From an uncultured Nitrosomonas sp. (GTDB taxonomy: Bacteria; Pseudomonadota; Gammaproteobacteria; Burkholderiales; Nitrosomonadaceae), in the NCBI RefSeq assembly GCF_902826915.1, contig NZ_CADEGP010000005.1, positions 1 to 64,000 of the forward strand: a stretch of 64,000 nt of DNA, in the 5' to 3' direction. Both the position numbers and the translations under genes were made by a program. Within the stretch, counting starts at the first letter, position 1. Each line of letters begins with the position of its first letter. The notes beneath the pieces were generated by a model, which worked only from the letters and a program-made list of their open reading frames with translations, searched no databases and was not told where the DNA came from. Positions 11,169-52,457 of the stretch are shown piece by piece.

Positions 11169-12213
11169 GGCTATGTCACAATTAGTTATTGAATCTGCCT
11201 TGTTTTCCCAAGAGATGCTAGGAAACAAAGAGTTGGGGTAATACTTTGACCGAGGCGTTCAATCATTCTGTGCCATCCGAGATAACTCCCAAGATAACGT
11301 GTTGCCACACCATTAAACTTCCTCATCCATTGCTTGAGCCGGCTATCATACGCATTGACGTTCTGAATATGATAGATGTTGTTTATAACTCTCTGACCTG
11401 CGGCAATATTGACTGGACGGTGGGCAATGTTTGCTTGCCGGGCAATCTGTTTATAAGTGGGCAACCCATCAGTGCACAAGATTACATCCTTATTTAACAA
11501 AGGAATAAGCACTGGTTCAATTTGCCGCGCACTTGTGCCATGCAGTATACAGTTTGCAGTCTCACCATGACGGTCGCGTACCACTAATACGGGCACTTGT
11601 TCTTTTGATGTCCCTTTCTTGACGGCTTTACCACCACGCTTGCGTGCAGATCTGGGTAAACGACGCTGTCCTTTGAAGGATTCCAGAAAATAGGTTTCAT
11701 CTGCTTCGACAATACCATTCATTTTGCTGGGTTGACCAGTCGAAGGTATTTGTAAAAAACGATGACGCCACTTAAAGCTTGTGTTCTTGGCTATTCCACA
11801 ACTGTCCGATGATTTTCGGATGCTTAATCCCTGAATCATCGTTTGCTCATATTCATACCATTTGTCCTTGTGCCGTAACCGTGCCAGTGGCGTGCCTGTT
11901 AGCGCGTTAAACGTCCGATTGCATTGACGACATCGATAACGCTGCAGCTCACTGGCTTTTCCCCAGCGATATAGGTTGCTTGTCTTACAATAGGGACAAG
12001 CAGGTTTGTCGTCCTGATTACGTTCGATCAATGCAATTACTTCATCAGTATTCTCTTTTCCTTCCAATCTCTTCCGGAGTTTGTCTCGCTGATTACGGCT
12101 CATGCGTTCAATCGAATCCATCCACGTTTTGAATTCCGTTGATTTCATTGTGCACACCTCTATATCTCAATGCACGTTGGACAAATAATTCAATAATTAA
12201 TTGTGACATAGCC
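11169..12213 (-). mobile_element. IS1595-family insertion sequence
   Basis: The element is 1045 bp long and bounded by inverted repeats. The left is GGCTATGTCACAATTAGTTA (11169) and the right, read inward, is GGCTATGTCACAATTAATTA (ends 12213); about 23 of 24 bases agree. It contains one full transposase gene. The family makes 8-bp target duplications, but the flanks here (TTTTAAAA and ATTATCAA) do not match, so one side was probably rearranged after insertion. Related ends bound the 144-bp MITE at 51055-51198. Confidence 0.88.
11186..12148 (-). CDS. IS1595-family transposase
   Basis: The 320-residue protein has an N-terminal zinc ribbon (CPYCKTSNLYRWG, then YRCRQCNRTFNALTGT) and the ISXO2-type catalytic domain. 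The domain shows EADETYF, CTDGLPTY and a C-terminal RLKQWMRKFNGVATRYL helix. This is the IS1595 layout and the length is normal, so the gene may be active. The ATG at 12148 with a GAGGTG site ahead is preferred over a GTG three codons upstream. It is the only transposase in the window with no visible defect. Confidence 0.9.
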   Translation of the reverse strand: MKSTEFKTWMDSIERMSRNQRDKLRKRLEGKENTDEVIALIERNQDDKPACPYCKTSNLYRWGKASELQRYRCRQCNRTFNALTGTPLARLRHKDKWYEYEQTMIQGLSIRKSSDSCGIAKNTSFKWRHRFLQIPSTGQPSKMNGIVEADETYFLESFKGQRRLPRSARKRGGKAVKKGTSKEQVPVLVVRDRHGETANCILHGTSARQIEPVLIPLLNKDVILCTDGLPTYKQIARQANIAHRPVNIAAGQRVINNIYHIQNVNAYDSRLKQWMRKFNGVATRYLGSYLGWHRMIERLGQSITPTLCFLASLGKTRQIQ

Positions 12214-50288: not shown

Positions 50289-50915
50289 TTAGGCGATCTT
50301 ACGGCGGTATCTGATGAAACCAAGTAAACCCAGTCCAACAGCCAGCATGGCATAAACTCTCGGCTCTGGAACAGGAAGGAGATTGACTGCAACATCGGAA
50401 CCCACTACCGCCATGGTCCCAGAATAGATCAGAGTTGAATTATCGGGAAAAATGACGGATGCTCTAATCACCATTCCGATCAGATCGGATACTATCGCGG
50501 CATAGTCACTGTTACTCGCAACGTCGGGATCCCACAAAAACTGAAATTTATCGAGCGGATCATAACCGGTGAAGTTAAAACCGAAATGCAGCGCATTATG
50601 CACGCCAAACGGAGATGAAACCCCATCACCAGCGGGATCATGAGCGAAACCAGAATCTTGCAAGACACTAAACACCAACGGTTCTCCGAGTACGCATCCC
50701 GTGTTACCACACTGCGTGCCCGACAAATCAAACCGCAGGCTCTGGATCATACCATCGGTCCTGTTAGAACTCGCAATATCTACCGTAAAGGAATCGAGCG
50801 GACCAAGGGTTTTTATGAAAACTGATCCTGATGCACCTGCATGACTCACTCCACCTAGCGTCACTACGAAACCAACCGCCAGAGCAATTTGTTTCAACCA
50901 TTTTAGTATTTTCAT
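50289..50915 (-). CDS. PEP-CTERM sorting-domain protein
   Basis: The 208-residue protein has a signal peptide (residues 1-27, cut near SHAG). The mature part is beta-rich and of unknown fold, with one likely disulfide (CGNTGC). The C-terminal sorting signal reads VPEPRVYAMLAVGLGLLGFI, then a basic RYRRK tail. Proteins of this kind are cleaved and placed at the surface by exosortase (EpsH), often with exopolysaccharide. The role of this one is unknown. A GGGGAAG site precedes the ATG. No exosortase is in the window. Confidence 0.9.
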   Translation of the reverse strand: MKILKWLKQIALAVGFVVTLGGVSHAGASGSVFIKTLGPLDSFTVDIASSNRTDGMIQSLRFDLSGTQCGNTGCVLGEPLVFSVLQDSGFAHDPAGDGVSSPFGVHNALHFGFNFTGYDPLDKFQFLWDPDVASNSDYAAIVSDLIGMVIRASVIFPDNSTLIYSGTMAVVGSDVAVNLLPVPEPRVYAMLAVGLGLLGFIRYRRKIA

Positions 50916-51046: not shown

Positions 51047-51206
51047 TTAAATAAGGCTATGTCACAGCTGATTATTGAGAATGACTTATAGAATCACATG
51101 ATTTTTTTGTAAACAATTGGTTATGTCGTTTCATGGTAATTAAAAAGTCATTTGTCATCAGAGTACTGTAAAAATCAACAGTTAATTGTTACATAGCCTT
51201 AAATAA
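51047..51206. mobile_element. MITE with IS1595-like ends and 8-bp target duplication
   Basis: A 144-bp element (51055-51198) is bounded by GGCTATGTCACAGCTGATTA on the left and, read inward, GGCTATGTAACAATTAACTG on the right. The first 24 bases agree at 20-21 positions with the ends of the IS1595 element at 11169-12213. It is flanked on both sides by the direct repeat TTAAATAA (51047-51054 and 51199-51206). The inside holds no gene. The 8-bp duplication is the size made by IS1595 transposases. The remainder of the spacer 50916-51304 shows no gene. Confidence 0.9.
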
Positions 51207-51304: not shown

Positions 51305-52279
51305 CTATATCACTTTGCTATCTGAACCAGCTACTTGATTAAAAGGCTTATCCTGGAAAAAATTCTCGATATTGCCTGCCAATTGATCCAGCAAACGCTG
51401 TCTAGATTCCCGACTAGCCCAGGCGATATGCGGCGTAACAATCAGGTTGCCCGGTTGCTGCCGCAGTATCAGATTATCCTTGTTCGGCGGCTCTTCCTGG
51501 ATCACATCGATCGCAGCACCGGCAATCCGGCCATTGGATAAGCTCTGCAATAAATCGACTTCATTGACCAAACCACCGCGCGCGGTATTGATCAGATACG
51601 CAGAAGGTTTCAGTAGATCCAATTCTCTGCGGCTGATCAGGTGTTGCGTTTCCCGCGACAATGGGCAATGCAGCGTAACAAAATCCACCCGCCGCAACAC
51701 GTCGTCAAACGCGGTTCTGCCAGAGCGTGGCGGTTTGCCTTTATGCTCCGCGATCAGCACCTGCATCCCGAATGCGTGCGCCACGTTAGCCACCGCTTTA
51801 CCCAATTCACCAAAACCGATGATTCCCAATGTTTTTCCGGATAACTCCTGAATATCAAAATCCAATGGACAGAAAAATTGGCTCGCTTGCCAGCCGCCGC
51901 GTTCCATCAGCTCCTGATAATCCACAAAATGGCGCGCCAGATTCAGCATCAGCATAAACACGTGCTGCACTACTGAGGGCGTAGCATAACCACGCACATT
52001 ACACACCGGAATATTGCATTCACCAGCAGCTGCGAAATCGACATTGTTATACCCGGTTGCCGCCACGCAGATGAGTTTCAGATGTTTCGCCGCAACGATT
52101 GCTGCGCGGTCGATAAACACCTTGTTGCTGACGATCACCTCGGCCGTGCGGATTCTTTCCTGCACCTCCTGTTCGGAAGAGTCATGATAATACTGCCACG
52201 GTGATACTGCTCGCTCCAGCGCCGCGCAATCCATATCGCCGCGAGTTACAGAACCAAAATCCAAAAAAACAGCGCGCAT
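51305..52279 (-). CDS. D-2-hydroxyacid dehydrogenase (glycerate/hydroxypyruvate type)
   Basis: The 324-residue enzyme has the NAD-binding motif LGIIGFGELGKAVA (about 148-161) and the catalytic triad of the family: Arg in NTARGGLVNE, Glu in IQEEPP and His in TPHIAWAS. The overall pattern fits hydroxypyruvate reductase or glycerate dehydrogenase, which act in glycolate salvage. I chose the ATG at 52279, preceded by GGAGGATTGAG, over a longer frame. It is divergent from the HD-GYP gene. The exact substrate is an inference. Confidence 0.9.
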   Translation of the reverse strand: MRAVFLDFGSVTRGDMDCAALERAVSPWQYYHDSSEQEVQERIRTAEVIVSNKVFIDRAAIVAAKHLKLICVAATGYNNVDFAAAGECNIPVCNVRGYATPSVVQHVFMLMLNLARHFVDYQELMERGGWQASQFFCPLDFDIQELSGKTLGIIGFGELGKAVANVAHAFGMQVLIAEHKGKPPRSGRTAFDDVLRRVDFVTLHCPLSRETQHLISRRELDLLKPSAYLINTARGGLVNEVDLLQSLSNGRIAGAAIDVIQEEPPNKDNLILRQQPGNLIVTPHIAWASRESRQRLLDQLAGNIENFFQDKPFNQVAGSDSKVI

Positions 52280-52457
52280 CTCAATCCTCCAGCTATGATC
52301 GAAAATCATACCACAAGCGATGCTTGGACGTTCCTTGCGGGTCACGTAGAATCATGTGCATCTAAAAATATTGAGTAGTGTACTTTTATCGCACGACTTG
52401 ATACATTGCTCATCTGCCATCAAATGTCGATGTGATTTCTAGCGAGGAAATCAGAAT

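Follow-up and report, generated by a model that had tools for sequence, protein, structure and literature searches.

A 144-bp gene-less element with IS1595-like ends in an uncultured Nitrosomonas, with its empty site in two sister genomes

The window analysed here, meaning the whole 64,000-nucleotide stretch of the contig, carries between a PEP-CTERM protein gene and a 2-hydroxyacid dehydrogenase gene a short AT-rich segment of 144 bp (G+C 31% against 45% window-wide), which sits upstream of the former gene and downstream of the latter and is bordered on both sides by the same exact 8-bp sequence. An insertion sequence (IS) of the IS1595 family lies 39 kb away. The features concerned are the following.

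11169-12213, minus strand: IS1595-family insertion sequence of 1045 bp whose 24-bp ends resemble those of the short element; candidate helper
11186-12157, minus strand: intact 323-aa transposase of this IS (PF12762, E=4e-15; NF033547, E=3e-58, 197 bits against a cut-off of 75)
50289-50915, minus strand: PEP-CTERM protein gene, its start 139 bp from the short element
51047-51054, no strand: left target site duplication TTAAATAA, read from the sequence; single copy TTAAATAG at the G037 empty site
51055-51198, plus strand: 144-bp non-autonomous transposable element (MITE) without an open reading frame (ORF) of at least 60 aa, from sequence, measurement and copies
51055-51078, plus strand: left terminal inverted repeat GGCTATGTCACAGCTGATTATTGA, whose likeness to the transposase-distal IS1595 end reaches about position 36
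51079-51174, no strand: interior, with an inner inverted repeat AATGACTT (51080-51087) pairing with AAGTCATT further right, from sequence, fold and pair counts; no source found among IS interiors
51175-51198, minus strand: right terminal inverted repeat GGCTATGTAACAATTAACTGTTGA (as read on the minus strand), from the sequence
51199-51206, no strand: right target site duplication TTAAATAA, read from the sequence
51305-52345, minus strand: 2-hydroxyacid dehydrogenase gene

The preliminary description of this locus, made from the letters alone, had claimed a 144-bp unit with inverted ends, an 8-bp duplication on both sides and no gene, and all of this was confirmed by reading and measurement, no ORF of at least 60 aa being found to overlap 51055-51198. 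The two 24-bp terminal inverted repeats are identical at 18 of 24 positions. The ends and the duplication are beyond chance: when exact 8-bp repeats spaced by 88-300 bp and enclosing inverted ends were sought in the window and in 40 dinucleotide shuffles of it, the element pair scored 18/24, compared with 15/24 for the best shuffle and 12/24 for the runner-up in the real window. The element thus has the features of a MITE, being short, gene-less and AT-rich, with terminal inverted repeats and a target site duplication. As the 139 bp beside the PEP-CTERM gene start have been retained, an influence on expression is possible; a promoter and terminator scan of the element gave nothing above shuffles.

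Related copies were sought in 85 Nitrosomonas genomes by nucleotide search and with a sequence model based on 17 copies, and the family was found in 18 of them. In the four genera of the taxonomic family that were searched only Nitrosomonas matched, and plasmid and phage collections gave zero matches. The usual length of the copies is 144 bp. Both ends are present in 24 copies, of which 21 show an exact 8-bp duplication (95% A+T) that varies between copies with the sole exception of one pair at duplicated loci; nearly all of the 24 are intergenic, only one lying at a site that would otherwise be inside an ORF of at least 120 aa. Two genomes, G017 and G048, hold about 15 family matches apiece, several of those in G048 at contig ends. 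The genome under study has one full-length copy and one decayed copy (contig C39, 28058-28165). The search for further genomic copies proposed in the preliminary description turned up a decayed relative within this genome; sister species hold 144-bp copies of full length, almost every one with a distinct 8-bp duplication of its own.

Some further observations were made during this survey. In G017 the right flanks of two family copies (L075 and L080) are identical over at least 118 bp but the left flanks differ, an arrangement that looks like a joint duplication of the element with its neighbour. Matches in G082 (L040, 1499-1602) and G081 (L041, 1499-1601) cover family positions 15-118 at 80-84% identity to the window copy and lack both terminal repeats; they lie at the same place in the two genomes and may reflect decayed ends or another origin of the interior. 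G017 also carries a second gene-less element of 146 bp (L150, 2748-2893; L156, 1337-1482) with exact 8-bp duplications, whose ends resemble those of the resident type C IS1595 (GGCTATGTCATCGTTA) and which has weak similarity to the 144-bp family.

An empty site was sought by joining both flanks at one copy of the target and running the construct against the same 85 genomes. Two sister Nitrosomonas genomes (G037, contig C6, and G055, contig C94) align through the junction with the element absent. The G037 junction is ACTATTACTATTTAAATAGCCCGATG, aligned gap-free over 409 bp at 93% identity, and its site reads ACTATTACTAT-TTAAATAG-CCCGATG, so that the single target copy predicted in the preliminary description is seen there as TTAAATAG, present once. 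The G055 junction is ACTATTTAAAAAAAACCGATG, at 89% identity with small gaps and no insertion. Flank identity is 94% on the right (1.5 kb) and 90-94% on the left (in pieces) for G037, and 92% on the right and 86-91% on the left (main pieces) for G055. Since the site is empty in both sisters, the insertion is most simply placed on the branch leading to this genome, after the split from them. Of the other copies, the nearest lies on contig C19 of G037; its identity to the window element is 96.5%, above that of the orthologous flanks. The insertion had earlier been called fairly young, and this holds in the relative sense: it is missing from sisters whose right-flank identity is about 92-94%, and the nearest copy stands at 96.5%.

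The opposite history, whereby the element was ancestral here, hence not young, and each of the two sister lineages lost it by precise excision, has some basis in the age of the family within the group. The decayed insertion of contig C39 was matched at the same ATTATAAA site in G037 (contig C3) and G055 (contig C8), and this old insertion common to three species indicates that the family was already there before these species diverged and became active once more afterwards. The C39 copy is without its right part, apparently through a deletion between ATTAT repeats as read from the alignment, and the G055 copy has lost different pieces. The shared insertion therefore decayed through ordinary deletions and not through clean excision, and a single insertion is a more parsimonious account than two independent precise excisions, each of which would have to restore one target copy. 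This leaves the ancestral reading very improbable. Even less credence is given to a non-mobile element retained for its function as a structured, conserved RNA or a regulatory hairpin. The strand does fold more favourably than its shuffled versions (z of -2.4 and -4.1) and the inner inverted repeat is well preserved in most copies, but a long-hairpin fold is possible for any inverted repeat, and paired cells over 17 copies amount to 87.5% against 87.0% in shuffles. Of 28 predicted pairs, no more than 2 show double changes; covariation scores 0.108 against 0.104 in shuffles, 147 of 500 of which reach it. In the pair counts the number of pairs with double changes is somewhat raised, 7 against 4.6 (reached by 12 of 500 shuffles), but the copies are related and the control is lenient for such copies. 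The copies moreover stand at unrelated loci, each with its own duplication, and the site is empty in the sisters. No Rfam family was found at cut-off, one weak match (MIR6217, 18.1 bits against 110) being rejected. The outcome named beforehand as fatal to a mobile element, namely no other copies and a conserved RNA structure, is thus excluded, with many copies found and covariation not above shuffles.

For the 144-bp MITE as a mobile element, the ends point to the IS1595 family. The agreement with the IS 39 kb away, given in the preliminary description as 20-21 of 24 bases, was reproduced (20, 21, 20 and 21), and the best types of IS1595-family ends reach 20-22/24. Eight-bp target duplications are reported for IS1595-family elements (PMC8101967) and for ISApl4 of this family (PMC12561309); in the genomes studied here, several copies of IS1595 type likewise leave 8-bp duplications at comparable AT-rich sites. 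The reported groups of the family are IS1595, ISPna2, ISSod11, ISNwi, ISNha5, IS1016 and ISH4 (PMC8101967). IS1595-like ends, 8-bp duplications and an intact transposase, as expected for an element mobilised by this family, were all found, the transposase in the same genome. The window IS itself is without a target duplication, having TTTTAAAA against ATTATCAA at its flanks. It is flanked on both sides by IS3-type orfA pieces, which suggests a rearrangement between copies.

The particular helper is a separate matter, for which the window IS is a candidate. The MITE may instead have been moved by another IS1595 subtype (B, D or E) that is or once was resident, a serious proposal to which we give somewhat less than an even chance and which is a rival on the helper only. 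Types A, B, D and E each reach 20-22/24, varying with the MITE end that is compared: the right end matches types B and E at 22/24, slightly above the window IS (20-21), whereas the left end fits best with type A, to which the window IS belongs (21/24, against 16-18 for type B). This genome does contain type B copies, on C25, on C31 and at contig ends, but the frame of the complete one is split in two. Also in favour of another subtype, the nearest relative, G037, has four MITE copies, yet nothing related to the window transposase was found in it at E ≤ 1e-20; the search at this threshold was also negative in the MITE-bearing G001, G081 and G082, and the MITE-bearing G038 has only a broken piece of such a transposase. 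The helper in these five genomes is therefore lost, unassembled or different. The variant GGCTATGTCGCAATTA / GGCTATGTCG (22-23/24) is common to the MITEs and the resident IS of G048, which fits a co-residence of the two; in G017 the fit is less specific, and the MITE ends do not clearly track any single resident IS. Type B copies at L144, L147, L150 and L152 of G017 and on C25 of G000 have a transposase frame split near residue 110, and some of those in G017 have intact 8-bp duplications, which may reflect either a programmed frameshift or the movement in trans of a broken copy.

The left end of the MITE offers an indication on its origin. Positions 25-36, just inside the repeat, agree with the transposase-distal IS1595 end at a mean of 6.8 of 12 positions, where shifted controls give 3.0 (sd 1.5); the copies are related and not independent cases. 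The three other end combinations are not clearly above the shifted controls, apart from IS L047, which entered this comparison in reversed orientation and whose distal end scores 7.6. The family model also scores IS ends over model positions 1-47 or 1-68 (E ~1e-4 to 6e-4). This polarity suggests descent of the left end, to about 36 bp, from the transposase-distal end of an IS1595 element. The remaining interior matched no IS interior. An origin by simple internal deletion (a type I MITE) was considered and rejected for the IS1595 copies compared, the interior being unlike IS interiors and the likeness being limited to the left 36 bp or so. That the MITE ends co-evolve with the resident IS1595 subtype through changing helpers, the interior and inner repeat being kept for a function of their own, is a doubtful extension of these comparisons.

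Taken together, we hold with high confidence that the 144-bp element is a MITE with IS1595-family ends, thought to be moved in trans by a resident IS1595-type transposase; the movement by such an enzyme is what we infer from the ends and the duplication length. The element is dependent on the IS1595 family and is not a member of it, as it encodes no DDE_Tnp_IS1595 transposase: it is too short to encode one and has just the recognition ends and an interior of about 96 bp. The moving enzyme is probably borrowed from a larger IS1595-type element. A resident element of this type would supply the transposase, which would bind the 24-bp MITE ends in trans and cut or copy the MITE out, whereupon the MITE would insert at an AT-rich, usually intergenic site via 8-bp staggered cuts and gap repair would give rise to the 8-bp duplication. 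The parts of this scheme that were observed are the ends, the duplication, the many copies at different sites, the empty sites in the sisters and an intact candidate transposase.

Like the resident IS1595-family copies, the MITE has 24-bp ends starting with GGCTATGT and 8-bp target duplications, and its left end is alike to about 36 bp; unlike them, it has no transposase, measures 144 bp against about 1050 bp and is otherwise unrelated in its interior. MITEAba12 of Acinetobacter, a 113-bp element with ends GGCTTTGTTGCA and a helper, ISAba12, that makes 9-bp duplications, has been observed to move (PMC6382973). It resembles the Nitrosomonas element in being gene-less, in a likeness to the helper IS that is limited to the ends, in its AT-rich targets and in its spread over related species, and differs in duplication length (9 bp against 8 bp), in its ends and in its observed movement. 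MITEPye1 of Paracoccus yeei, likewise a gene-less element of low copy number, has ends resembling those of an IS and is predicted to form a hairpin, but its ends belong to the IS1182 family (PMC11578231). In the literature on Nitrosomonas MITEs and on IS1595 with MITEs no description of this family was found, ISfinder lying outside this search. The family is of an ordinary, known kind, apparently undescribed so far, and little in it is likely to surprise specialists. It adds a MITE family to the ammonia-oxidising Nitrosomonas, with the empty site directly visible, and provides a clean IS1595-type case, with 8-bp duplications and AT-rich targets, for the question of which transposase moves gene-less elements.
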